Source: an uncultured Salinisphaerales bacterium
GTDB taxonomy: Bacteria; Pseudomonadota; Gammaproteobacteria; Nevskiales; CAJXLF01
Length of the DNA stretch: 64,000 nucleotides
Reading direction: 5' to 3'
Assembly (NCBI GenBank): GCA_913055805.1
Contig: CAJXLF010000007.1
Coordinates: forward strand, 1-64,000
In this document: piece by piece, positions 43,507-58,562 of the stretch
Layout of the letters: the number at the start of each line of letters is the position of its first letter
How positions within the stretch are numbered: position 1 is the first letter of the stretch
Position numbers and translations under genes: made by a program
The notes under the pieces: model-generated
What the model was told of the DNA's origin: nothing
The model's database searches: none
Seen by the model: the letters and a program-made list of their open reading frames with translations, nothing else

Positions 43507-44835
43507 TCAGGGATTATGCCGCAGGCCGGCCGGTCCTGCCCCGGTTTTACCCAGCAGGAAACTGGTGCGAGTCGGACCTATTCCCTTGATATTGATATCG
43601 CCGCGGTCTTCAAAGGAAAATTCATCGCCCAGCAATTCAGCCAGTGGTTGAGACACGTGGATGCGGCCCGGCTGGCCATGAGACTCCAGGCGGCTGGCGA
43701 GATTGACGGTTTCTCCCCAGATGTCGTAAGCGAATTTGTGACGGCCGATTACACCCGCCACCACGGGTCCGCTGTGAATGCCAATACGCAGCTGCAGCAC
43801 ATTGTCCGCGGGCAGCCTCAGTTGCGGCATCAGGGCCTGCATTTCTAATGCCGCCCGCGCCACAGCCTGCGCATGGTCCCCGCGCGCCTCAGGCAGCCCG
43901 CCTACTAGCATGTAGGCATCGCCGATGGTCTTGATTTTTTCCAGCCCATGCATCAGCACGATGTCATCGAAGCGGCAGAAAATTTCGTTCAGCAACTGGA
44001 CCAGGGCGGCCGGCGGCAGACGTGATGACAGCGGCGTGAATCCGACCAGATCGGCGAACAGCACGGTGGCCTCAACATGACCGTCGGCAATCGGGGCGGG
44101 ACGATCCTCTGTCTGGGAGCGGTTGGCAGGGAGAGGTCCGGTGTCACTCTGGTTCTTCAGCCGTTCGGCAATAGAGGCGGGCAGGATGTTGCGCAGCAGG
44201 TTTTCGGAATGTTCGAACTCTTCCTGCAGGCGACGCTCCGCCCGGTGAATTTCCGTGAAAAACAGACCCACCACCAGCGCCACGGCCAGGAAGGTGCCCG
44301 TAACGCTAAGAGCATGTATCTGTTCAATCAGACCGGCAGGAAAATCGTAGTCCAGAGCCGGCGTGACAAACCAGAATTCGATGGTGAGAAAGCCGAGCCA
44401 GTAGACTATGGAAAAAAACAGCAACGCAATCCATTCGCGCCGCGTATAAATCAGAAACAGCAATGTCCAGATGACAATCAGGTAAAGCTGCAGGCCAGCG
44501 CCGCCGCTGATGAAGTAAGCGGAAATAAAAAGCGTGGTCACCGGAATGCTGGACAATATCCAGCGGGCCAGGCGCTGATGCCGCGTGCCGTTGAGCAGCA
44601 TGACGCCGACAAAGGCGAGGCAGGCGATCAGCACCAGCCACAGGAAAACCGACAGCGCCGCGGCATCGAGTATGATCACCTGCCCTGCGTACACTATGTT
44701 CAGGGCAATGGCGATGGCGCAGAACTGGTTGACCAGCATGACTCTGCGGGCCGAGACATAGTCCAGTCCCTGTGTGCCGTGACGGCTGAGTGTCTGCCAG
44801 TGATCGCGCAGTCTGTGATGGATGGGGTAATGCAT
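43507..44835 (-). CDS. Membrane adenylate cyclase, class III
   Basis: A 442-residue protein with about six membrane helices in residues 30-190, a short linker, then a class III catalytic domain. All catalytic residues are present: metal Asp in VLFADLVGF and IGDAY, adenine-specifying Lys in EKIKTIGD and Asp in YDIWGETVN, transition-state Asn and Arg in TVNLASRL. It should therefore make cAMP. The ATG at 44835 is chosen. An earlier ATG at 44931 would overlap the maf start. The HPt gene lies 41 bases downstream. Confidence 0.88.
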   Translation of the reverse strand: MHYPIHHRLRDHWQTLSRHGTQGLDYVSARRVMLVNQFCAIAIALNIVYAGQVIILDAAALSVFLWLVLIACLAFVGVMLLNGTRHQRLARWILSSIPVTTLFISAYFISGGAGLQLYLIVIWTLLFLIYTRREWIALLFFSIVYWLGFLTIEFWFVTPALDYDFPAGLIEQIHALSVTGTFLAVALVVGLFFTEIHRAERRLQEEFEHSENLLRNILPASIAERLKNQSDTGPLPANRSQTEDRPAPIADGHVEATVLFADLVGFTPLSSRLPPAALVQLLNEIFCRFDDIVLMHGLEKIKTIGDAYMLVGGLPEARGDHAQAVARAALEMQALMPQLRLPADNVLQLRIGIHSGPVVAGVIGRHKFAYDIWGETVNLASRLESHGQPGRIHVSQPLAELLGDEFSFEDRGDINIKGIGPTRTSFLLGKTGAGPAGLRHNP

Positions 44836-44925
44836 GCTGCGAGCCCTCGCCCTGTCCTGTACCGGAGTATGACGCAGCGTTGTCGGCAACTGTAGTTTTG
44901 TTGAGTATGAAAACGGATCGGAAAT

Positions 44926-45504
44926 ATGCATGAGCCTCCCCAGCTGATATTGGCCTCTGCTTCACCACGCCGCGCCGAATTGCTCCGGAATCTCGGGTTG
45001 CGCTTCAGTGTTCAGCCGCAGCATCTGGATGAGTCGCAACTTGACGGAGAAGCCGTAAAAGACTTTGTTTGCCGTCTGGCCGGGGAGAAGGCTTTTGCAG
45101 TGCAGGCAGCCGCTGTGCCGGTGCTGGGCGCCGACACGGTCGTGGTGGCTCGGGAGCGGGTGCTTGGAAAGCCGCGTGATCAAGCCGATGCTGTGGATAT
45201 GCTGCTCAGCCTCGCTGGTCGTAAACACCAGGTGATGACTGCCGTGGCCGTGGCGCAGGGTAGCCGAATCGAATCTGCATTAAGCATCAGCGAAGTTACC
45301 TTCCGGACAGTCACCCGCTCCGAAGCGCAAGCATACTGGGACAGCGGCGAGCCCCGGGACAAGGCGGGCGGATACGCCATCCAGGGGTTGGGCGGGATAT
45401 TCGTCCAGCGGCTTGAGGGCAGTTATTCGGGTGTTGTGGGCCTGCCGGTCTTGGAAACTTCCATTTTGCTGAGGCGCTTCGGTATCACGGTATTAAGTGA
45501 CTGA
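44926..45504 (+). CDS. maf: Maf nucleotide pyrophosphatase (YhdE type)
   Basis: A 192-residue Maf protein that hydrolyses dTTP and UTP, including modified forms, to monophosphates. The motif ASASPRRAELL begins the protein and the catalytic Asp is in LGADTVV. The sequences SGEPRDKAGGYAIQG and YSGVVGLP are typical. The start lies divergent from the cyclase gene with ATGCAT shared by alternative starts. An Asp/Tyr pattern suggests the YhdE rather than the YceF group. Confidence 0.93.
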   Translation: MHEPPQLILASASPRRAELLRNLGLRFSVQPQHLDESQLDGEAVKDFVCRLAGEKAFAVQAAAVPVLGADTVVVARERVLGKPRDQADAVDMLLSLAGRKHQVMTAVAVAQGSRIESALSISEVTFRTVTRSEAQAYWDSGEPRDKAGGYAIQGLGGIFVQRLEGSYSGVVGLPVLETSILLRRFGITVLSD

Positions 45505-47446: not shown

Positions 47447-50400
47447 GTGCAATGTCCCCATTGTCAGCATGACAATCCCGCACAGGCCCAATTCTGCAAT
47501 CACTGCGGCGGGGCGCTGGCCGGTGAATGTGGTCAGTGTGGTCACAGCAATCCGGCTGGCGCGCGTTTCTGTAATCAGTGTGGCCATTCGCTGCAGGATA
47601 TGACCGCGCCGCGAACGCCAGCCGCCGGTCGTGACAGCTATACACCGCGGCATCTGGCCGAACGCATTCTGACCAGCCGCAGCGCGCTTGAGGGTGAGCG
47701 CAAGCGGGTAACGGTGTTATTTATCGATATCAAGGGCTCCACCGATCTGGCCCAGCAGGCCGGTGACGAGGCCTGGCACCAGATTCTCGACCGTTTCTTC
47801 GCCATTCTCACGCACGGCGTACATCGTTACGAAGGCACCATCAATCAGTACACGGGCGACGGCATCATGGCCCTGTTCGGTGCGCCGGTGGCGCATGAGG
47901 ACCATGCCCGCCGTGCCTGTATGGCGGCGTTGGAGTTGCAGACAGAACTGCGCCGCTTTGCAGACGAACTGCGTTTCGACAAGGGTCTGAACCTTTCGGT
48001 GCGTTTCGGCCTGAATTCGGGCGAAGTGGTAGTGGGTTCGATCGGGGATGACCTGCGCATGGATTACACCGCCAAAGGGCAGACTGTAAACCTGGCGGCC
48101 CGCATGGAACAGATTGCCGAACCGGGGCGTATTTATCTGACGCGTTACACGGCCGCCCAGGTCGAAGGTTACTTCCGGCTGCGCGACCTGGGCAGCATGA
48201 ACGTCAAGGGGATTGCAGAGCCGGTTTCTGTGTATGAGCTGGAGGGGGTTGGCAAACTCAAGACGCGGCTGGATATGTCCCGTTCGCGGGGGCTGTCCAG
48301 TTTTGTAGGGCGCGGTAATGAACTGCAGTTGCTGCAAGACGCGCTGCTGGATGTGACTGGTGGCCACGGGCAGGTGGCCGCCGTGGTCGGCAATGCCGGT
48401 ATAGGCAAGAGCCGGCTATGTTTCGAATTTGTCGAACGCGCCCGCAGCCAGGGCGTGGAAGTTTTCCAGGGCACCTGCGTCCCCTACGCCAGTACGGTGC
48501 CCCTGCATCCGGTGCTGGATCTCGTGCGCGGCTTTTTTGGCATCGAGGAGGCGGATTCCGCGGCCGAGCAGCGCCGCAAAATTGCCGGCACCCTGACGCT
48601 GATGAATCTGGACTGCCGCGACAGTATGCAGTTGCTGTTCGAATATCTTGGGGTCGCGGCACCCGGTGAGGCTGCTTCAACCATTGCGCCGGAAATGCGT
48701 CAGCAAGAGCTGTTTTCCATGCTCGGGAAATTGCTGCCGGGTACCGCGGCACAACCGCGCGTCATTCTTCTGGAAGATCTGCACTGGCTGGACGAAATCA
48801 GTGAACAGTTCGTGGCCGGGCTCGCTGCCGAGCTGGAGGGCACCGCGACCCTGCTGCTGCTGAATTACCGGCCGGATTATGTCGCCGACTGGCTCATGAC
48901 CGGTCTGGATCTGGATATCGCCGTGACTGCCCTGTCGGCTGAGGAAGTAGCCAGTCTGGTTGCAGAGCTGCTGGGCAGGGATGGCAGCCTGGCTGCGCTG
49001 ACCGAGCAGATCCGTCAGCTGGCCGGCGGCAATCCCTTCTTTGTCGAGGAAGCTGTGCGGAATCTGGCGGAGCTGGGTTACCTGGAGGGTCTGCAAGGTC
49101 AGTATCGTTTGGTCAAAGCTGTCGACAAGACAGTGATTCCCGATAGCGTGCAGGGCATTCTGGCGGCCCGCATTGACCGGCTGGCGGATGACGATAAACG
49201 TCTGCTCGAATACGCCGCGGTCATCGGCAAGGAGTTCGGGCGCGCGCAACTGGCGGCAATAACCGAAATGCCGGAGTCACATCTTCCGGAATTGCTGGTC
49301 AACCTGGAGGAAGGCGGATTTGTGCATCAGCGCGAGCAGCTCGGGGAATACGCCTTCTGTCATCCGCTTATCCAGGAAGTGACCTACCATGCGCAGCTGG
49401 CCGAGCGGCGTGCCCAGGTGCATGCCGCACTGGCCGCGTATCTGGAAGCCGAACTGGGTGGCAATACCTTCGATGAACGCGCACTGATGCTGGCGCATCA
49501 CTGGTCGCGCGCGGGTCATGCTCTCAAGGCTGCAGAGTGGCAGATTCATGCGGCCGTATGGGAAGGGGTGATGCGTGAATCCAACGGTGCGCTGGCTCGC
49601 TATCGAAGGGCGATTGAATTTCTGGACAGGCTGCCCGAAAGCGCACAGCGGGACAAATTGGCCATCACCGCCCGTTCCGGTGTGTTGCGTACCTCGGCCA
49701 TAGTGCGGGCGCCGGTCGAGGAGATCAGCCGTGTTTATGAAGAAGGTCTGGCGCTGGCCAAGAAGACAGGAGATCAACTGGCGCTTGCCGAACTGCAGAT
49801 CGCGCATGCGTCGGTCGAGCTGCAGCATGGCGATGCCGATCTGGCGGTAGAGCAGGCGCACGAGGCCTTGCAGCTGGCGCGGAATCTGGGGCAGTCGGAA
49901 CTCATTGCCCGTTTCCGGGTGCCGATTCTATTGACCTACTTTGCATCGGGACGTCTGGTGGAGGGGATGGGAGCCTTGACCGAGCCGGGCAGAGAAGCCT
50001 GGTTTGCCGGCCCGATGACCGAAGACAATTTCCTTTCCCGCGGTCTGCGCGCCCTCATGCTGACCTATATGGGCAAGCTCAACGAGGCGCGGCGGGAAAC
50101 CAGGCGGGCGATTGAAATCGAGGGCGAATCCGGGCGCACAGTCAGCTGGATGCATGCCAACCTGGTGGATGTAGCGCGGGTCTCCGGTCACAAGGAGGAT
50201 GCCATGCGCGAGGCGCTGGCCGCGGTGTCCCGAACCGAACACTTTACCAGTCCGTTTTTCAAGGCACTGGCCTATCGCAGCTTGGCAGTGGCCCATGGTT
50301 TGAACGACAATTGGCGTCAATCGGCGGAGATTCTTGAAGAGCATCTCGAATTGGTGCGTCCCGGTGCGCCGGCGCATCAGTTCGAAGCCGTGCATCTCAG

Positions 50401-50797
50401 TCATCTTGCCGAGGCCAGGTTTCATCTGGGTGAAATCGAAACAGCGCAGGCTATTGTCCAGGAAGCCCTGGATTCGGCACGGAATTCGCACTCACGTATC
50501 TGGGAATGCCAGGCCTTGCTGGTGAAGTCACTGATTCTGTGTTCCACCGGTGAACATCAGGCCGCTGCGGCACAACTGGACCGGCTGGAAGCGTTGATTG
50601 CAGAAACCGGCGCTGTCAGCTTCAGGCCTTTTCTTTTTCTGCTGCGTTCCCAGTTACAGACGGACGCGGCAGGGCGGGATGCCTGGCTGGTGCCGGCGCT
50701 GCAGCATTTCACCGAAATTGGCGCCGATGGCTGGGTAGAGCAGGTACGCGCCAAACACGGGCTGGAAACGGATTTCCAGGCAGCCACCAACGCATAA
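47447..50797 (+). CDS. Zinc ribbon, class III cyclase and AAA ATPase protein 1
   Basis: A 1116-residue soluble signalling protein. Two zinc ribbons (Cys 3/6/17/20 and 28/31/42/45) are followed by a class III cyclase domain (about 85-265) and an AAA/STAND ATPase. The Walker A loop is GNAGIGKS at 315-322. A helical repeat region fills the C-terminal half. Metal Asp94 and Asp138, transition-state Asn215 and Arg219 are present. The Lys that selects adenine is Gln134 and the partner Asp is Thr208, so base choice is uncertain. GTG 47447 is chosen for CAGGGAGA upstream and agreement with protein 2. It is 16 bases from protein 2. Confidence 0.88.
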   Translation: MQCPHCQHDNPAQAQFCNHCGGALAGECGQCGHSNPAGARFCNQCGHSLQDMTAPRTPAAGRDSYTPRHLAERILTSRSALEGERKRVTVLFIDIKGSTDLAQQAGDEAWHQILDRFFAILTHGVHRYEGTINQYTGDGIMALFGAPVAHEDHARRACMAALELQTELRRFADELRFDKGLNLSVRFGLNSGEVVVGSIGDDLRMDYTAKGQTVNLAARMEQIAEPGRIYLTRYTAAQVEGYFRLRDLGSMNVKGIAEPVSVYELEGVGKLKTRLDMSRSRGLSSFVGRGNELQLLQDALLDVTGGHGQVAAVVGNAGIGKSRLCFEFVERARSQGVEVFQGTCVPYASTVPLHPVLDLVRGFFGIEEADSAAEQRRKIAGTLTLMNLDCRDSMQLLFEYLGVAAPGEAASTIAPEMRQQELFSMLGKLLPGTAAQPRVILLEDLHWLDEISEQFVAGLAAELEGTATLLLLNYRPDYVADWLMTGLDLDIAVTALSAEEVASLVAELLGRDGSLAALTEQIRQLAGGNPFFVEEAVRNLAELGYLEGLQGQYRLVKAVDKTVIPDSVQGILAARIDRLADDDKRLLEYAAVIGKEFGRAQLAAITEMPESHLPELLVNLEEGGFVHQREQLGEYAFCHPLIQEVTYHAQLAERRAQVHAALAAYLEAELGGNTFDERALMLAHHWSRAGHALKAAEWQIHAAVWEGVMRESNGALARYRRAIEFLDRLPESAQRDKLAITARSGVLRTSAIVRAPVEEISRVYEEGLALAKKTGDQLALAELQIAHASVELQHGDADLAVEQAHEALQLARNLGQSELIARFRVPILLTYFASGRLVEGMGALTEPGREAWFAGPMTEDNFLSRGLRALMLTYMGKLNEARRETRRAIEIEGESGRTVSWMHANLVDVARVSGHKEDAMREALAAVSRTEHFTSPFFKALAYRSLAVAHGLNDNWRQSAEILEEHLELVRPGAPAHQFEAVHLSHLAEARFHLGEIETAQAIVQEALDSARNSHSRIWECQALLVKSLILCSTGEHQAAAAQLDRLEALIAETGAVSFRPFLFLLRSQLQTDAAGRDAWLVPALQHFTEIGADGWVEQVRAKHGLETDFQAATNA

Positions 50798-50813
50798 CAC
50801 GGAAGACTTGGAT

Positions 50814-53800
50814 ATGCAGTGTCCCCAGTGCGGACATACGCCCCCTGCGGAATCAAAATTCTGCAATCAGTGTGGTCACAAACTCCCGCCCCAGGAAGAG
50901 GGGCGGGGATATACGCCGCCGCATCTGGTGGAAAAAGTGCTGCGTATGCGTTCCGCCCTGGAAGGCGAACGCAAGCAGGTCACGGTGCTGTTTGCCGATG
51001 TCAAAGGATCCGTAGCGCTTTCCGAGACGCTTGATCCCGAAGTCTGGCATCAGGTGATGGATCGTTTCTTCGCCATTGTTACCGCAGGCATCCACGATTT
51101 TGAAGGCACCATCAACCAGTACACCGGTGATGGCATCATGGCCCTGTTTGGCGCCCCCATAGCGCATGAGGATCATGCCCGGCGTGCCTGTCTTGCGGCC
51201 TTGCGCATCCAGCGCGAATTGCATGCCCTGGCTGATGAGCTGCAACAGGAATACGGCGTGGAGTTCCTGGTGCGTATTGGTATGAACTCCGGCGAGGTAG
51301 TGGTCGGGCGAATCGGGGATGATCTGCGCATGGATTACACCGCGCAGGGACATACCGTTGGGCTGGCAGCGCGTATGGAGAGCATGGCGCGGCCGGGTCG
51401 TATTTATCTGAGCCATTTTACCCGCGCCCTGGTTGAGGGCATGTTCGAACTGCGCGAGCGGGGAGATGTGCGCATTCGCGGGGTGGCGCGTCGGGTCAAG
51501 GTGTACGAGTTGCGGCGCAGCGCCAAATACCGTTCCCGCTTCGAGGTAGCGAGAGAACAGGGGTTGCCACCCCTGATCGGGCGTCAGACCGAATTGCAGG
51601 TTCTGGATGAAGCACTGGAACAGGCGCGCAACGGCAAGGGCCAGATTGTGGCCATTACCGGCGATCCGGGTATTGGCAAGAGCCGGCTGTTGTATGAATT
51701 CGCCCAGCGTTGCAATGAACGGGATCTGGTCGTGGCGGAGACACGTGGCGTGTCGTATCACAAGGCCGTGCCGGCCGCCCCGGTGGCACAGTTCCTGAAG
51801 AGTTATTTCCACATAGACGATAACGACACTCCGGAACAGACTCGCGACAAGGTGGCTGGGGTATTGCGCAATCTGGATCCGAAGCTCGAAGAGCAGGCAG
51901 ACCAGATTATGGAGTTCCTGGGTCTGGCGGGTAGCGCGGGCAGCACGCGGGGCGTTGAGACTCAGCTGGATAATATGCAGGACACTTTCCTGAGTATTGT
52001 TGCCGCCGCCAGCCGCGTGGACTCCGGCGTCATTCTGCTCGACAACCTGCATTGGCTCGACAGTGATGTCATGCATGGTCTGCTGGATTACATGATGCAG
52101 AGCATCGGCCGCAGCCATGTCATGGCCATTGTGACCTACCGCCCGGAATACGCCTGCCGCTGGCATGACCTGCCGCACTTCCGTGAATTACGGCTGGCGC
52201 CTTTCGACGAAAGCGAGGGGCGGGCCTACCTGGATGCCCTGCTGGGCGAGGATGAAAACCTGCTTGCGTTCAAGCTGCAGATCATTGAGCGCACCGGCGG
52301 CAATCCTCTGTTCATGGAACAGGTCGTACGCTCGCTGGTGGATACGGGGCAGCTGGTGCACGGTCGCTCGGGCTACCGTCTGAGCAAGCCGCTGGATCAA
52401 CTCGAGGTGCCGGCAGAAATTCAGGCTCTGGTAGCGGCACGCATTGATCGCTTGCCTGATGCAGACAAGCGTCTCCTGCAAGTGGCTTCGGTCATCGGCA
52501 AACAGTTCCCGGTGCAGTTGCTGCAGGCGGTGAGCGGACTGTCTGTCGATGACATCAGTCATGGGCTTGAACGGTTGACGAGCGGCGGCTGGATTTACCG
52601 CTGTAGTATCGAATCGGGCGAAGGCCAGGTGGAGTATGCCTTTCACCAGTCGCTGCTGCGTGAAGTGGCCTATCTGGGGCAACTGGCGGAAAACAGGGCC
52701 ACCATACACCGCGCGGTTGCGGAGAATCTTGTCAGAACCGCAGGTCGTCGTTCCGATGGTTATGAAGCACTGGTGGCGCACCATTATGCGCAGGCCGGTG
52801 AACTGGAAACTGCGGTCATGTGGTATGCCCGGGCGGCCACCTGGGCTGCGCATCGCGATCTCGGCATGGCGCTTCAGCACTGGCGGGCCGTGTCAACGTT
52901 GGTGGACGAGTTGCCCGACTCGCCCAAAAGCGCGGAAGTTGCTCTGCAGGCCTGCTCGCGCCTGATTTCGCTGGGTTCGCGATACGGTATGTCCATGAAG
53001 GAGTTGCAACCGCTGATCGAGCGTGGACAGCAGCTATCCGCTGCTGTCGAGGACCAGGCGCAGCGTTGCTATTTCCTGATCGCCTGTGGAACGACCTATT
53101 TGATTTGCGGAGACGGCAAGAGCAGCGCCGAGTGTTATGTGCAGGCGGTGGAACTGGTAAAGAACAGTCAGGACACTGGCATGAAGGCTGCCGTTTACAT
53201 GGGCCAGGGACATATGTTCCTCATCCTCGGCGAATTGTGGCAGGCAGAATCGGTCATCGCGACGGGCTTGAGTCTGCTTGATGGTGACGTGGAAGCCGGT
53301 AATGCGTTCCTGGGCCGCAGTCCCTACGTCAGCCTGCTGTGTCTGAAGGCCTGGCTGCGTCTCTACCAGGGGCGTTTGCGGGAGGCCGAAAAGTTGCTGG
53401 ATGCTGCGCGTGAACTGGCCGTTCGCAGGGACGAGTCGGAGCCCATCGTGCTGTGCGATATCGTGGGCAGCCTGCTTATGGCAGACAGCGGCTATCCCCG
53501 CAAGGCCATTGATATGGCGCGTTCGGCTCTGCAAAGAGCCGAACACCAGCACCACACCATATTGCGGGTCACGGCACTCTGGGCGCTGGGCAATGCCCAT
53601 GTATGGGCAAACCAGGGCAGACGTGCGCTAGAAGCTCTGCAAACAGCGCAGCAACTGGTAACGGAAAAACAGGTTGCCCTGCATATGGAGCCGCGCTTGC
53701 TGGTGACGCTGGGGCGCGCTCAGGCGATGGCCGGTGATGCCGACAAGGCGCGGGGCACTCTGCGTGAAGCAGTGCGGATATCGCGCCGACGCGGTCAGAA

Positions 53801-54104
53801 ACACCTGCAGGCGGTTGCCGACCTGACCCTGGCGGAATTCCTGCTCAATACCCAGAGCGGGCGGCGGGTGGAAACCGAAGTGCTCGGGTTGATCAAGCAG
53901 GCTGAAAGCATGATTGACGAAATCGGTGTGGAATCGTTGCGTCCGCGCTGGCATATGGTGGCGCATCAACTGGCTCAGGCGCGTGGCGACGCGGATCGTG
54001 CGGATGTTGAATGGCAGTCGGCGGCCGATCTGTTCAAACAGCTGGGTGCAACTGCCCAGTTACGCCGTTTGCGCGCACGCCTGCGAAAGCGCGCCAAGGA
54101 ATGA
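50814..54104 (+). CDS. Zinc ribbon, class III cyclase and AAA ATPase protein 2
   Basis: A 1096-residue paralogue of the preceding protein in the same order of domains, but with a single zinc ribbon (Cys 3/6/17/20). Metal Asp62 and Asp106 and Arg187 are kept, and the P-loop is GDPGIGKS at about 283-290. The transition-state Asn is Gly183 (TVGLAARM instead of TVNLAARM). That should lower or change catalysis, although TVG is common in relatives. It may instead be a nucleotide sensor or a partner in a heterodimer with protein 1. C-terminal TPR-like helices suggest protein binding. The start is ATG 50814. Confidence 0.87.
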   Translation: MQCPQCGHTPPAESKFCNQCGHKLPPQEEGRGYTPPHLVEKVLRMRSALEGERKQVTVLFADVKGSVALSETLDPEVWHQVMDRFFAIVTAGIHDFEGTINQYTGDGIMALFGAPIAHEDHARRACLAALRIQRELHALADELQQEYGVEFLVRIGMNSGEVVVGRIGDDLRMDYTAQGHTVGLAARMESMARPGRIYLSHFTRALVEGMFELRERGDVRIRGVARRVKVYELRRSAKYRSRFEVAREQGLPPLIGRQTELQVLDEALEQARNGKGQIVAITGDPGIGKSRLLYEFAQRCNERDLVVAETRGVSYHKAVPAAPVAQFLKSYFHIDDNDTPEQTRDKVAGVLRNLDPKLEEQADQIMEFLGLAGSAGSTRGVETQLDNMQDTFLSIVAAASRVDSGVILLDNLHWLDSDVMHGLLDYMMQSIGRSHVMAIVTYRPEYACRWHDLPHFRELRLAPFDESEGRAYLDALLGEDENLLAFKLQIIERTGGNPLFMEQVVRSLVDTGQLVHGRSGYRLSKPLDQLEVPAEIQALVAARIDRLPDADKRLLQVASVIGKQFPVQLLQAVSGLSVDDISHGLERLTSGGWIYRCSIESGEGQVEYAFHQSLLREVAYLGQLAENRATIHRAVAENLVRTAGRRSDGYEALVAHHYAQAGELETAVMWYARAATWAAHRDLGMALQHWRAVSTLVDELPDSPKSAEVALQACSRLISLGSRYGMSMKELQPLIERGQQLSAAVEDQAQRCYFLIACGTTYLICGDGKSSAECYVQAVELVKNSQDTGMKAAVYMGQGHMFLILGELWQAESVIATGLSLLDGDVEAGNAFLGRSPYVSLLCLKAWLRLYQGRLREAEKLLDAARELAVRRDESEPIVLCDIVGSLLMADSGYPRKAIDMARSALQRAEHQHHTILRVTALWALGNAHVWANQGRRALEALQTAQQLVTEKQVALHMEPRLLVTLGRAQAMAGDADKARGTLREAVRISRRRGQKHLQAVADLTLAEFLLNTQSGRRVETEVLGLIKQAESMIDEIGVESLRPRWHMVAHQLAQARGDADRADVEWQSAADLFKQLGATAQLRRLRARLRKRAKE

Positions 54105-54135
54105 GAAGTTCGCTAAGCTAGGCATATAAATAGCG

Positions 54136-54149
54136 ACATGGCTCCATGT
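54136..54149. promoter_or_regulatory. Palindrome before the LolA-like gene
   Basis: ACATGG and CCATGT are perfect 6-base arms with a two-base centre. It lies in the only sizeable gap (85 bases) of the module, so it may be an operator or an internal control site. Confidence 0.3.
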
Positions 54150-54189
54150 ACATGAAGCTATCAGGCATACAGGCGAAAGGGATCTGGAT

Positions 54190-55020
54190 ATGACATTAAA
54201 GCGCCTCATGCAGCCGGCTGCGGTTCTGGCTGCCTTGTTGTCACCGGGTTTGTCCGTGGCTGCCGGAGAATCGATGCCAGCTGCCCCGGCGGCGGATGCG
54301 CCTCAAACCGCCCAGCAAATCCGTGAATGTGCCCGTAATAATTTTCCGCGGCAGACATCCGTGCAGGATCTGGCCATGATCGCGCATGACCGCAGCGGTG
54401 GTCAGCGCACCCTGCAGGCCAAGATGTACTGGCGTCTGGATGACGGGGGTTACAACAATGTCATGATCCGTGTTTCCACCCCGAATGATCTGTCCGGCTC
54501 CAGCTACCTGGTGCTGGAGCGTTCTGACCGTGATGACATGTTCATGTATCTGCCTGCCCTGGATCGCGTGCGGCGCATTGTCGGCGGCATGCGCGACAAG
54601 CCGTTGTGGGGCACTGATCTCAGTTACGAAGACATCAAGCATCTGCAGGGCGTGGCCGTTGCAGGCACGCTCAAGCGTCTGGATGACGGAAAGGTTGCCG
54701 AGCGCGAGGTTTATGTCATCGAATCCGTGTATGCACCGGACGATGAAAGTCCCTACGGGCGGGTGATCAGTCATGTGGATAAAAAGACCTGTGTGCCACT
54801 ACAGGCCGATTTCTTCGACAAGACCGATGAGGCGGTCAAGCGCCTGACTGTGCAGCACGATACGCTGGTGGAAAAAGACGGCCGCTGGCGCATGCGGGAT
54901 CTCAAGATGCAGGACCTGCACAACCAGACCTACACTGATCTCAAGCTGCAGGAAATCGAAAGCGACGAGGAAATCAGCGGACGGGTATTCAGTACACACG
55001 GTTTCCATCTCGGCGGTTAA
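54190..55020 (+). CDS. LolA-like outer membrane lipoprotein-sorting protein
   Basis: A 276-residue exported protein with a signal peptide ending SVAAGE. The mature part has the pattern of the LolA-like family that accompanies RND/MMPL exporters: MYWRLDDGGYNNVMIRV, then LVLERSDRDDMFMYLPALDRVRRI and WGTDLSYEDI. These soluble proteins carry lipid or lipoprotein through the periplasm to the outer membrane. The gene is 14 bases before the RND gene, so they form one unit. The cargo is not revealed. Confidence 0.82.
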   Translation: MTLKRLMQPAAVLAALLSPGLSVAAGESMPAAPAADAPQTAQQIRECARNNFPRQTSVQDLAMIAHDRSGGQRTLQAKMYWRLDDGGYNNVMIRVSTPNDLSGSSYLVLERSDRDDMFMYLPALDRVRRIVGGMRDKPLWGTDLSYEDIKHLQGVAVAGTLKRLDDGKVAEREVYVIESVYAPDDESPYGRVISHVDKKTCVPLQADFFDKTDEAVKRLTVQHDTLVEKDGRWRMRDLKMQDLHNQTYTDLKLQEIESDEEISGRVFSTHGFHLGG

Positions 55021-55034
55021 TTCCGCTGTAAGCC

Positions 55035-57782
55035 ATGCTGGAAGACCATCAGGGCTGGCTGACACGCTGGTACCATTTCTCGGCACGCCGATCCGATCTC
55101 GTTCTGGCTGCAGTGGCGGCCATCAGTCTGCTTGCCATCCTGATTCTGTATAACCCGCTGAACGGCCAGTTCCGGCTACAGATAGACCCCTCGATTGATC
55201 GTCTGGTACCCACCGACAGTCCGGCACGCAGGTTCTACGATCAGCAGAAACAGCGTTTTGGCAGTGACGAAACCCTGATCATTGCTATTGAGGGCGTTGA
55301 TGTTTTTACCGCATCTTCCATGCAGCGTTTACAGGCCTTGCGCCTGGCCTTGCGCAAGGTGCCCGGCGTGCATGAGGTGCAGTCCCTGGCGACCGCCACC
55401 AATGTGCGGGAAGTGGATGGCGCGATCGGTCTGGGCACTTTCGCCAATGCAGATTTCGACGACCCACAGGTGCCTGAGCGACTGAAGGCGGATCTGAACG
55501 CCAATCCGCTGTATGCAGGCCGGCTGGCGTCGGATGACGGCCGCACGGCGGCCGTGATAGTGACCTTCCAGGGACTGAGCGACCGCGAGTTCCTGGAACA
55601 GTCGGTGGTGGCGCAGGTGCGTCAGGTCACTGAGGATGTCATGCAGGGCAGCGATGCCAGGGTAAGGGTCACCGGTGCACAGGCAGTTAAAGCGGCCACC
55701 AGTGAGGCGCTGGTCAAACAGTTTGTGTACCTGTTGCCGGCTCTGGTGGTGTTGCTGGATCTGTTCCTGTTTCTGGCGTTTCGCAGTTTGCGGGGCGTAT
55801 TGCTGCCGGTGCTGGGTATCGGCCTGGCGTTGTTGTGGACACTGGCGCTGATGGCGTTATTCGGGCGCCAGATCAACCTGGTGAGCAGTCTTGTGCCGCC
55901 GGTGATCATTACCATCGGGCTGGCCTACGCCATGCATGTGATCAACGAATATTTCGTCACGGCCAGTCCGGACTGTGATGAGGTGACGCATACCCGCAAC
56001 CTGCTCGAGGCCGTGGGTTTGCCGCTGCTGGTGACCGGCCTGACCACGGCAGCGGGTTTTCTGGCATTGGCGTTGAGTCCGTTGCCGGCGATTCGTGAAT
56101 TTGCCCTGTTTTCCGCGGCTGGCGTGATGTTCACGGTAGCCATCTCGCTGACGTTTCTGCCCTCGGCGCTGCGTTTCATGCGTTGCGGCGATGTGCAGAA
56201 ACTGCCCGGCCAGGCCTTTTTCGAAGGCCTGGCGAGTATGTTGGCAGCATTTGATACCCATCGCCGGCGGCCGATTCTGATTGTGGCGGTTCTGGCGATT
56301 CTCATCGCGGGCTACTACGCCACCCAAATCCGGGTAGGCACCAATTACATCAATGATTTTCCTGAAGAATCCGAGGTGCGGCGGGATTATCAGGCAATCA
56401 ACGACAACCTGGGCGGGGCCAACGTATTCAGTATCGTGTTGGAAGGTGTCGTCAGGGATGCTCTGGCCGAGCCTTCGGTGCTCAGGGAAATTCGCAATCT
56501 GCAGGAATGGCTGGAGGATCAGCCGGAAATCGGTGTCACGACCTCAATGGTGGATCACCTGATGCTGATCAGCCGGACACTCAATGGCGACGAGGCTTAC
56601 TTCGCCATCCCCGACTCAGTCAGTGACGTCAAGCAATATCTGCTCTTCGGCGGTGGTGAGGAACTGGATGCCTACGTGGATCGCGCCTTCAGCCATGCAC
56701 GTATAGAAGTGCAGGCTCTGGTGCAGGATACGGCCATGATCCGCGAGCTGGACGAGCGCATCAATCAGCGCCTGCGTGATCTGCCGTCCATTGTTCGCGG
56801 GCGTACCACCGGCAACAGCATCCTCATGACCCAGGCAGTGGATGAAGTGGCCTCCGGTCAGGGGCTGAGCATCGGCGTTGCCCTGCTGGTGGTCTACATA
56901 ATGCTGGGGTTTTTGTTCACCTCGTGGCGGGTGGGCATGCTGGCGTTGCTGCCGAATATTCTGCCGGTCATCGTTTATTTCGGCGCTCTGGGTTTCAGTG
57001 GCATAACACTGAACCCGACCACCAGTCTGATCGCCTGTATCGTGCTGGGCATTGCTGTGGACGATACCGTGCATTACCTGGCGCGATTCAATGCACAGGC
57101 CCGCGACTCGGCCAGTGAGCTGAAAGCCACCTACAGCACCTTGCATCAGCTGATTCGTCCTGTGACGCTGACATCGGCCGTGCTGTGCATGGGTTTTCTG
57201 GTTCTGGCCGGCAGCGACCTGCAGAATCAGGTGCAGTTCGGGGTGTTGGCGGCTTTCACCCTGCTGGTAGCCTGGGTGACCGATGTAACGGTGACGCCGG
57301 CGCTGGCTTCCGGGGTCAAGATTGTCACTCTGTGGGATGTGTTGCGACTCGACCTGGGACGCTCTCCCCAGCATTCGATTCCGCTGTTTGACGGCCTCAG
57401 TTTGCGCCAGGCGCGTATTTTTGCCTTGATGTCAGACATACAGACCGTGCCCGCAGGCACGCGGGTGATTACCGAGGGTGAGGTCGGCGGAGATATCTAC
57501 GTCATCATCGAGGGTGAGCTGGACGTTTGGGTGGAGCGTGACGCGCAGCGGGTGGAACTGGACGTCATGCGCCGCGGCATGACCATCGGTGAGGTAGGTC
57601 ACTTCGGACACCGGCGCACGGCAAATATCGACGCCATCAGTGACGTGCGACTGCTGCGATTCAATGACGGCGATCTTGAGCGCATGGTGAAACGCTATCC
57701 ACGCATAGCTGCAGTGGTGTTCCGGAATCTCAATCGCATCCAGGCGCAGCGAATCACCCGCGATATGCAACGTATGCGCTAG
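55035..57782 (+). CDS. RND/MMPL exporter with C-terminal cyclic-nucleotide-binding domain
   Basis: A 915-residue inner membrane transporter. Two halves each have a large periplasmic loop (about 45-230 and 430-620) and a bundle of helices (about 232-385 and 625-770), with proton-relay Asp in AVDDTVHY. It belongs to the MMPL/HpnN lipid-exporter group. From about residue 795 a cyclic-nucleotide-binding domain follows, with EGEVGGDIYVIIEGELDVW and a phosphate-binding cassette GEVGHFGHRRTAN that keeps the Gly-Glu and Arg. The upstream cyclases could therefore gate it. It is the last gene of the module. Confidence 0.88.
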   Translation: MLEDHQGWLTRWYHFSARRSDLVLAAVAAISLLAILILYNPLNGQFRLQIDPSIDRLVPTDSPARRFYDQQKQRFGSDETLIIAIEGVDVFTASSMQRLQALRLALRKVPGVHEVQSLATATNVREVDGAIGLGTFANADFDDPQVPERLKADLNANPLYAGRLASDDGRTAAVIVTFQGLSDREFLEQSVVAQVRQVTEDVMQGSDARVRVTGAQAVKAATSEALVKQFVYLLPALVVLLDLFLFLAFRSLRGVLLPVLGIGLALLWTLALMALFGRQINLVSSLVPPVIITIGLAYAMHVINEYFVTASPDCDEVTHTRNLLEAVGLPLLVTGLTTAAGFLALALSPLPAIREFALFSAAGVMFTVAISLTFLPSALRFMRCGDVQKLPGQAFFEGLASMLAAFDTHRRRPILIVAVLAILIAGYYATQIRVGTNYINDFPEESEVRRDYQAINDNLGGANVFSIVLEGVVRDALAEPSVLREIRNLQEWLEDQPEIGVTTSMVDHLMLISRTLNGDEAYFAIPDSVSDVKQYLLFGGGEELDAYVDRAFSHARIEVQALVQDTAMIRELDERINQRLRDLPSIVRGRTTGNSILMTQAVDEVASGQGLSIGVALLVVYIMLGFLFTSWRVGMLALLPNILPVIVYFGALGFSGITLNPTTSLIACIVLGIAVDDTVHYLARFNAQARDSASELKATYSTLHQLIRPVTLTSAVLCMGFLVLAGSDLQNQVQFGVLAAFTLLVAWVTDVTVTPALASGVKIVTLWDVLRLDLGRSPQHSIPLFDGLSLRQARIFALMSDIQTVPAGTRVITEGEVGGDIYVIIEGELDVWVERDAQRVELDVMRRGMTIGEVGHFGHRRTANIDAISDVRLLRFNDGDLERMVKRYPRIAAVVFRNLNRIQAQRITRDMQRMR

Positions 57783-57818
57783 CTGCCTTTACCGGCCCTT
57801 CAGCCGGGCTGACGACAT

Positions 57819-57837
57819 CCCCTGTTCGGGGGCTTTT
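57819..57837 (+). terminator. Possible terminator of the RND module
   Basis: CCCC-TGTTC-GGGG is a short GC hairpin followed by GCTTTT, 37 bases after the RND stop. The U-run is short, so this is a weak call. Confidence 0.4.
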
Positions 57838-57875: not shown

Positions 57876-57956
57876 CGTTTGCGTTGTCCCGGTTGATCAC
57901 GTAGAGTACCGCGCCCAAACGGGGTGACCCCTGAGTTCTCTCTTGACGGAGGGGCG

Positions 57957-58562
57957 GTGGAGACAAGCAGTTTTAACGCAGCGGCCGAGGCATTGGTAGA
58001 AACCGGGCGCCGGTTTGACGCCCGCGGCTGGGTGCCCGCCAGTAGTGGCAATTTTTCCATTCGTCTGTCTGATGAACGCCTGGCCATTACCGCTTCAGGG
58101 CGGCACAAGGGCGAACTCACAGCGGCGGATATTCTGACCGTGGACATGCATGGCAAGGTTCAGGAGGGTGATTTGCGCCCTTCTTATGAAACCGGGCTGC
58201 ATACCCGGTTGTACCGCCGTATACCGCAGTTGGGGGCGGTGCTGCATACCCATTCTGTAGCCTGCACAGTGATATCCCGGCAGGCAGGTCACAACATTGA
58301 ACTGCGGGACTATGAGTTGTCGAAGATATTCGAGGGCATCGACTCTCATGAGGTTACGCTGCGGATTCCGGTCTACGAGAACGATCAGGACATCGAAGCG
58401 TTGGCGGCCATGATTGATGCCCGGATGGAGCGTGATGGTCCGGGCCAGGCGTATTTGATCAGAGGGCATGGGCTTTATACCTGGGCAGGCGATATCAGGA
58501 CTGCCCGCTACAGGGTGGAAGCCCTTGAGTTCATGCTGGAATGTGAACTGCATACAAAATAG
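57957..58562 (+). CDS. mtnB: Methylthioribulose-1-phosphate dehydratase
   Basis: A 201-residue class II aldolase-type zinc enzyme of the methionine salvage pathway. Zinc ligands are in HTHS (VLHTHSVACT) and in RGHGLYTWG-like RGHGLYTWAG. The N-terminal ARGWVPASSGNFSIRL is the family start of the fold. The GTG at 57957 is preceded by GGAGGGG and is preferred over GTG 57924, which would add 11 residues. It leads mtnD and mtnC on the same strand with small gaps. Confidence 0.92.
   Translation: METSSFNAAAEALVETGRRFDARGWVPASSGNFSIRLSDERLAITASGRHKGELTAADILTVDMHGKVQEGDLRPSYETGLHTRLYRRIPQLGAVLHTHSVACTVISRQAGHNIELRDYELSKIFEGIDSHEVTLRIPVYENDQDIEALAAMIDARMERDGPGQAYLIRGHGLYTWAGDIRTARYRVEALEFMLECELHTK

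Follow-up and report, generated by a model that had tools for sequence, protein, structure and literature searches.

A candidate operon for cyclic-nucleotide-controlled export of hydrophobic compounds in an uncultured Salinisphaerales bacterium

Results

The window, that is, the whole 64,000-nucleotide stretch of DNA analysed here, holds a row of two cyclase-ATPase genes (CYA1 and CYA2), a gene for a LolA-like carrier and a gene for an RND exporter that ends in a cyclic-nucleotide-binding domain (CNBD). We read this row as an export operon that is complete in itself and controlled by a second messenger, in which a cyclic nucleotide (cNMP) would gate the export of a hydrophobic compound, and we put the probability of this reading at about 0.5. 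The initial annotation had described four co-directional genes with gaps of 16, 85 and 14 nt, and the coordinates of the four + strand ORFs, from 47447 to 57782, agree with it exactly; its domain calls are upheld by Pfam matches above the curated cut-offs, with the exception of the zinc ribbon and TPR of CYA2, whose matches are weak, and of the helical repeats of CYA1, which are seen in its AF2 model.

Since a terminator-like hairpin with a T run follows the exporter gene and mtnB comes next, the operon probably stops 3' of the exporter gene (Table 1). On the opposite strand, 2.5 kb upstream and outside the operon, lies the gene of another class III cyclase, which has the canonical Lys/Asp pair and a MASE7 membrane sensor.

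Table 1. Coordinates of the operon, of its parts and neighbours, and of related genes at other loci
Feature	Locus	Position	Strand	Remarks
MASE7 class III cyclase	window	43507-44931	-	
CYA1: double zinc ribbon, class III cyclase, AAA_16/STAND-like ATPase, TPR	window	47447-50797	+	GTG start, 1116 aa
CYA2: architecture of CYA1 type	window	50814-54104	+	ATG start, 1096 aa
LolA-like periplasmic carrier, PF17131	window	54190-55020	+	276 aa, apparent Sec signal peptide
RND-CNBD exporter, whole ORF	window	55035-57782	+	915 aa
MMPL/HAE3-type RND exporter part, residues 1-765	window	55035-57329	+	TM10 GIAVDDT; fold like MmpL4/5/3, Patched, NPC1 and HpnN
C-terminal CNBD, residues about 776-915	window	57360-57779	+	phosphate-binding cassette GEVGHFGHRRTA with E853 and R861
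Terminator-like hairpin and T run, 3' of exporter gene	window	57818-57832	+	consensus match only
mtnB (methionine salvage), next gene downstream	window	57924-58562		
CHASE2-cyclase	L227	6091-8361	-	divergent from the rhodanese gene below
Two-CNBD rhodanese protein	L227	8457-9998	+	
CNBD-rhodanese gene	L203	11495-12634		
Barrel-like gene after RND-CNBD	L114	12730-14178		
Barrel-like gene after RND-CNBD	L143	12639-13955		
Barrel-like gene after RND-CNBD	L234	8508-9902		
Barrel-like gene after RND-CNBD	L111, L113, L115, L124, L141, L159			

The exporter and its cyclic-nucleotide-binding domain

The exporter carries an MMPL domain (PF03176, 110 bits against a cut-off of 20.5) and, by Pfam, AF2 and Foldseek, the duplicated 12-TM fold of an MMPL exporter. 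Its AF2 model (mean pLDDT 88.8, pTM 0.81) has MmpL5, MmpL4, MmpL3, NPC1-like proteins and HpnN as top Foldseek matches, and VIA-align gives Z values of 42-45 for residues 1-767 against Patched, NPC1-like, MmpL and AcrB-type chains alike; these alignments span residues 1-767 of the model, and the CNBD is assigned from Pfam and phmmer. In the proton-relay motif of TM10, GIAVDDT, D677 is invariant and D676 nearly so. The best-scoring NCBIfam model, TIGR00921 (HAE3), reaches 228 bits against a cut-off of 352, so we name the protein HAE3-type and not HAE3. At the other end of the protein, cNMP_binding (PF00027) matches residues 803-888 with 54 bits (cut-off 27.5), so the exporter had been correctly recognised as an MMPL/RND protein with a terminal cNMP-binding domain.

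The C-terminus of RND proteins is cytosolic, and the CNBD is thus expected to face the cytosol. Its closest relatives in the PDB are true cNMP binders (PKG, PKA-R, SthK and MlotiK1), and Glu853 and Arg861, the expected contacts to the cyclic phosphate and ribose, are conserved in 53 of 53 homologs. Compared with PKA or MlotiK1, the loop of this Glu-Arg cassette lacks one residue; in two distant relatives described below (L114 and L143) the loop has the canonical length. Binding of a cyclic nucleotide by the CNBD is likely from these features. That the domain is a mere leftover is disfavoured, because Glu and Arg are intact in all of these homologs, with or without a linked cyclase.

The cyclase-ATPases

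In CYA1 and CYA2 an N-terminal zinc ribbon is followed by a class III cyclase domain, an AAA_16 ATPase and a TPR-like C-terminus. Pfam matches above the curated cut-offs cover DZR, Guanylate_cyc and AAA_16 in CYA1, and Guanylate_cyc and AAA_16 in CYA2. The AF2 model of CYA1, made from 4 sequences, has a pLDDT of 66 and is confident in the C-terminal helical repeats/TPR only.

We compared the cyclase residues with those of the reference enzymes CyaB (3r5g) and Cya2 (2w01). Both window proteins retain the metal-binding Asp pair and the transition-state Arg, and the transition-state Asn is kept in CYA1 and replaced by Gly in CYA2. Neither has the canonical Lys/Asp or Lys/Thr substrate pair: the base-selecting positions are Gln/Thr in both, as in every cyclase-ATPase compared. 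Among 20 cyclases linked to the exporter, 11 have the Asn and 9, CYA2 included, have His, Gly or Ser in its place; no tabulated cyclase has lost the Arg or the second metal Asp, and every linked one that was aligned has the first metal Asp. On balance, CYA1 is rather probably active as a cyclase.

The reading of both proteins as cyclase-ATPases survives in part. The class III domains are there, but they are unequal, and a second active homodimer is doubtful because of the Gly in CYA2. Class III cyclases are dimers in which each site is built from residues of both chains, so a CYA1-CYA2 heterodimer would have one complete site; we infer that the metal Asp of this site would come from CYA2 and the Asn and Arg from CYA1.

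By sequence clustering, CYA1 and CYA2 are of separate descent and do not come from a recent duplication. CYA1 clusters with unlinked cyclases of the genomes G008, G016 and G064, and the nearest of these (the G008 and G016 copies, 60% identical) are located away from the exporter. The clustering of CYA2 with the G008 cyclase that is linked is weak; CYA2 occupies the LolA-adjacent slot, which is conserved in relatives. A tandem pair of cyclase-ATPases is also found in G012 (L206), not at the exporter; one protein of the pair is only 811 aa long and its motifs are degenerate, and one of the matches contains an in-frame TGA.

Synteny within the order

The window belongs to the order of Solimonas and Nevskia, and the hosts of the operon are soil and water bacteria. 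About 60 of the 84 genomes of this order have an ortholog of the RND-CNBD protein, with identities that mostly lie at 37-52%, and at these loci the LolA-like gene is nearly always immediately 5' of the exporter gene. A cyclase-ATPase gene precedes LolA in 17 of 49 loci, spread over five families, and in three loci from three families (L038, L040 and L049) the cyclase and LolA genes overlap by 4 bp at stop and start; the other 32 loci have no linked cyclase. Most deep branches of the RND tree (f5, f1, f6 and f4) show the linkage, and the linkage label requires 11 changes on this tree against 17 in shuffles, with 1 of 500 shuffles as low. This clustering fits an old linkage of the cyclase that was lost repeatedly.

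Seen from the cyclase side, and over 85 genomes, about half of all homologs of the cyclase-ATPases adjoin an RND-CNBD gene. The remainder have mixed neighbours: none adjoins another LolA/RND pair, bar a weak RND match in L208, and a search among their neighbours revealed no partner common to all. In eight genomes with 68 LolA-family matches, the only LolA gene that a cyclase-ATPase adjoins is the one linked to RND-CNBD. In one genus (g2), unlinked cyclase-ATPases and two amidohydrolase genes form an operon-like row (L198, L200, L201, L202 and L196); in L196, near a contig end, just one amidohydrolase gene is visible.

The initial annotation had named a lack of synteny in relatives as grounds for rejecting its reading; synteny is present, with a cyclase in the 17 loci above and a widespread LolA/RND-CNBD pair. 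Its closed circuit stands as a recurrent linkage of cyclase and RND-CNBD but not as an obligatory one, given that about two thirds of the order's loci lack an adjacent cyclase and about every second cyclase-ATPase is encoded at another place.

Recurrence in distant lineages

A genome scan placed the RND-CNBD family also in Myxococcota, Desulfobacterota, Alphaproteobacteria, Omnitrophota and Rokubacteria, and the pair of LolA-like and RND-CNBD genes is conserved in the first three of these as well. Directly 5' of this pair, Desulfospira joergensenii (L114) has a PAS-cyclase and a Rhodospirillales MAG (L143) a CHASE2-cyclase. The substrate pair of the PAS-cyclase is Glu...Gly, as in Cya2 (2w01), which is a guanylyl cyclase, and that of the CHASE2-cyclase is Lys...Thr. 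Two cyclase-linked loci among 35 such loci are unexpected (rough chance P about 0.0001-0.002), because the genomes concerned hold only 4 (L114) and 5 (L143) class III cyclases. Neither of these linked cyclases has an ATPase part, which leaves the cyclase domain as the feature common to all.

An upstream cyclase is present in 19 of 111 RND loci with a CNBD and in 0 of 48 without one (Fisher P 0.0009, relatedness ignored, although the loci are not independent of one another); when the comparison is limited to LolA-adjacent loci, of which 7 have no CNBD, the difference is not significant (P 0.34).

The carrier and the likely substrate

The third protein matches LolA_like (PF17131) with 137 bits (cut-off 30), and the solved structures closest to it are 4z48, 3bk5 and 9tp6. 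Its gene adjoins RND-CNBD in most loci. The LolA-like fold is common to many carriers, and the window's genome alone has 27 LolA-like/DUF1329 matches, which suggests that the order may hold a large set of hydrophobe exporters. Numerous such genes per genome are found in G003, G004, G006, G008, G018, G021, G048 and G050 too.

A lipid-like substrate is probable. The initial annotation had proposed lipid or lipoprotein; the lipoprotein half loses ground, since PF17131 describes a broad fold with many matches in this genome and the nearest characterised system, AmeABCD, exports apolar monoterpenes. Genes flanking the operon vary between loci, and when we looked among those of the order for a clue to the substrate we met unrelated housekeeping functions (SDR, GreA/B, SelO, PanE, ExbB/DUF3450).

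Relatives of the exporter have a CNBD-patatin lipase as neighbour at several loci of Myxococcota, Desulfobacterota and Planctomycetes (L089/L090, L092, L131, L139 and L150), and in L131, L139 and L150 the RND protein beside the lipase itself has no CNBD. Outside the window's order an outer-membrane barrel-like gene, whose product ends in Phe, may stand directly 3' of RND-CNBD (Table 1); it is often added there, e.g. in Thalassospira marina, and a Pfam search with the L114 protein gave no match. Patatin-lipase neighbours and barrel-like genes would fit a route for a lipid or hydrophobe to the outer membrane.

Cyclic nucleotides in the genome

The genome of the window, 95.7% complete, encodes six class III cyclases, four of them besides CYA1 and CYA2. 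We found no class I cyclase and no CRP in it, and the sole Crp-type HTH protein above the cut-off is FNR-like. Its CNBDs sit on RND, patatin/NTE lipase, EAL, glutaminase-STAS, rhodanese and FNR-like proteins. With no CRP found and CNBDs on other proteins, cNMP would act through enzymes and transporters and not through the usual transcription factor, so that cNMP signalling in this genome seems largely non-transcriptional. At L227 of the same genome, a CHASE2-cyclase gene is divergent from that of a rhodanese protein with two CNBDs. A CNBD-rhodanese gene of similar type is found close to an unlinked cyclase-ATPase at another locus, L203 (Table 1).

Discussion

From the arrangement, domains, conserved residues and recurrence found here we infer catalysis, ligand, gating (which may open or close the pump) and substrate in the following scheme. 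CYA1, alone or with CYA2, would read a cytoplasmic cue via its ATPase/TPR part and make a 3',5'-cyclic nucleotide, probably cAMP. This nucleotide would dock on the C-terminal CNBD of the RND exporter, on the cytosolic side, and the nucleotide-bound domain would alter the proton-driven export of a hydrophobic, lipid-like substrate from the inner membrane; the LolA-like protein would accept the substrate and ferry it across the periplasm. The sensor-cyclase may be an exchangeable front end to a constant core of exporter-CNBD and carrier. That nucleotide binding gates export is the step towards which we lean, with less confidence than we have in binding as such.

It is conceivable, though unlikely, that a CNBD-gated exporter responds to the general cNMP pool of the cell, into which a merely co-expressed cyclase-ATPase feeds, with no closed local circuit. 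The four other class III cyclases of the genome would suit this, as would a CNBD motif that stays intact though most of the order's loci have no linked cyclase; the repeated linkage of different cyclases, with overlapping genes, points instead to a dedicated supply, as do the 48 CNBD-less RND loci, none of which is cyclase-linked. Somewhat less credible still is a role of the cyclase-ATPases as STAND-type sensors or scaffolds with a largely degenerate cyclase, acting by protein contact on the exporter or on its expression, the CNBD serving structure or oligomerisation. Their big ATPase/TPR part, the loss of Asn in CYA2 and 8 other linked cyclases and the change from Lys to Gln in all cyclase-ATPases compared speak for such a role. 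It is at odds with the metal Asp and Arg residues retained as described above, with the L114 and L143 cyclases, linked without any ATPase part, and with the invariant Glu and Arg of the cassette.

The shorter cassette loop and the Gln/Thr selectivity pair leave a slim chance that the CNBD takes a ligand (e.g. c-di-GMP or a noncanonical cyclic nucleotide) other than the cyclase product, against which stand the Glu/Arg pattern and nearest structures that are cAMP/cGMP proteins. If the signalling pair had come to lie beside the transport pair by chance, the patchy linkage and the variable flanking genes would be accounted for, but the linkage recurs in five families and two distant lineages and its label is clustered on the RND tree, and by this recurrence we reject the explanation as very improbable.

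Control of RND exporters is usually ascribed to transcription and substrate supply. If the scheme of a cNMP-gated exporter is true, export of lipid across the envelope would come under direct, fast and reversible control. The exporter would also offer a concrete role for cyclic nucleotides where, as in this genome, there are six cyclases and no CRP was found, and the ATPase/TPR, PAS and CHASE2 front ends are natural comparisons of the cue that is read. Our wider proposal is tentative, and we hold it a little less firmly than the reading of this one operon: that there is a family of RND lipid/hydrophobe exporters gated directly by cNMP with a dedicated, exchangeable cyclase sensor, a complete post-translational circuit for envelope export without CRP.

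All parts of the operon can be assigned to known families, and CNBDs on transport proteins are not new. In ADCY10, the mammalian soluble adenylyl cyclase, and in mycobacterial Rv0386 a class III cyclase is likewise followed by an NTPase and a TPR-like part, and in Rv0386 the Lys position is taken by a noncanonical Gln; the window proteins differ in having one cyclase domain, an N-terminal zinc ribbon and linkage to an exporter. The TOMM kinase/cyclase model TIGR03903 is alike in the cyclase-ATPase region (297 and 276 bits against a cut-off of 706), but no kinase domain was matched in the window proteins. TIGR03896, for cyclic-nucleotide-binding bacteriocin-export proteins, is a precedent for a CNBD in export (35 bits, cut-off 161). 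We know of no dedicated cyclase operon for the MlotiK1 and SthK channels or for MFS-CNBD fusions. They share with our protein the joining of a membrane transport protein to a CNBD, but they are ion channels or MFS proteins and the window protein is an RND exporter; the MFS-CNBD fusions have been mentioned (PMC10710835). A search of the literature, with subscription journals mostly outside it, found no RND/MMPL exporter with a CNBD or a cyclase operon. The lipid/siderophore exporters HpnN and MmpL3/4/5 have no CNBD and about 16% sequence identity to the window exporter, with which they share the fold (TMt about 0.6-0.8) and the TM10 proton-relay motif. AmeABCD of Castellaniella defragrans comprises an HAE3 RND protein, a LolA-superfamily DUF1329 protein, a DUF1302 outer-membrane protein and a COG4447 protein, and protects against and exports apolar monoterpenes (PMC6394551). 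No CNBD is described for AmeD (787 aa) and no cyclase is reported (PMC6394551), and the DUF1302 and COG4447 genes have no counterpart in the window operon, after which mtnB comes next; what the two systems have in common is an HAE3-type RND protein co-encoded with a periplasmic protein of LolA fold, and hydrophobe export, reported for AmeABCD and proposed here.
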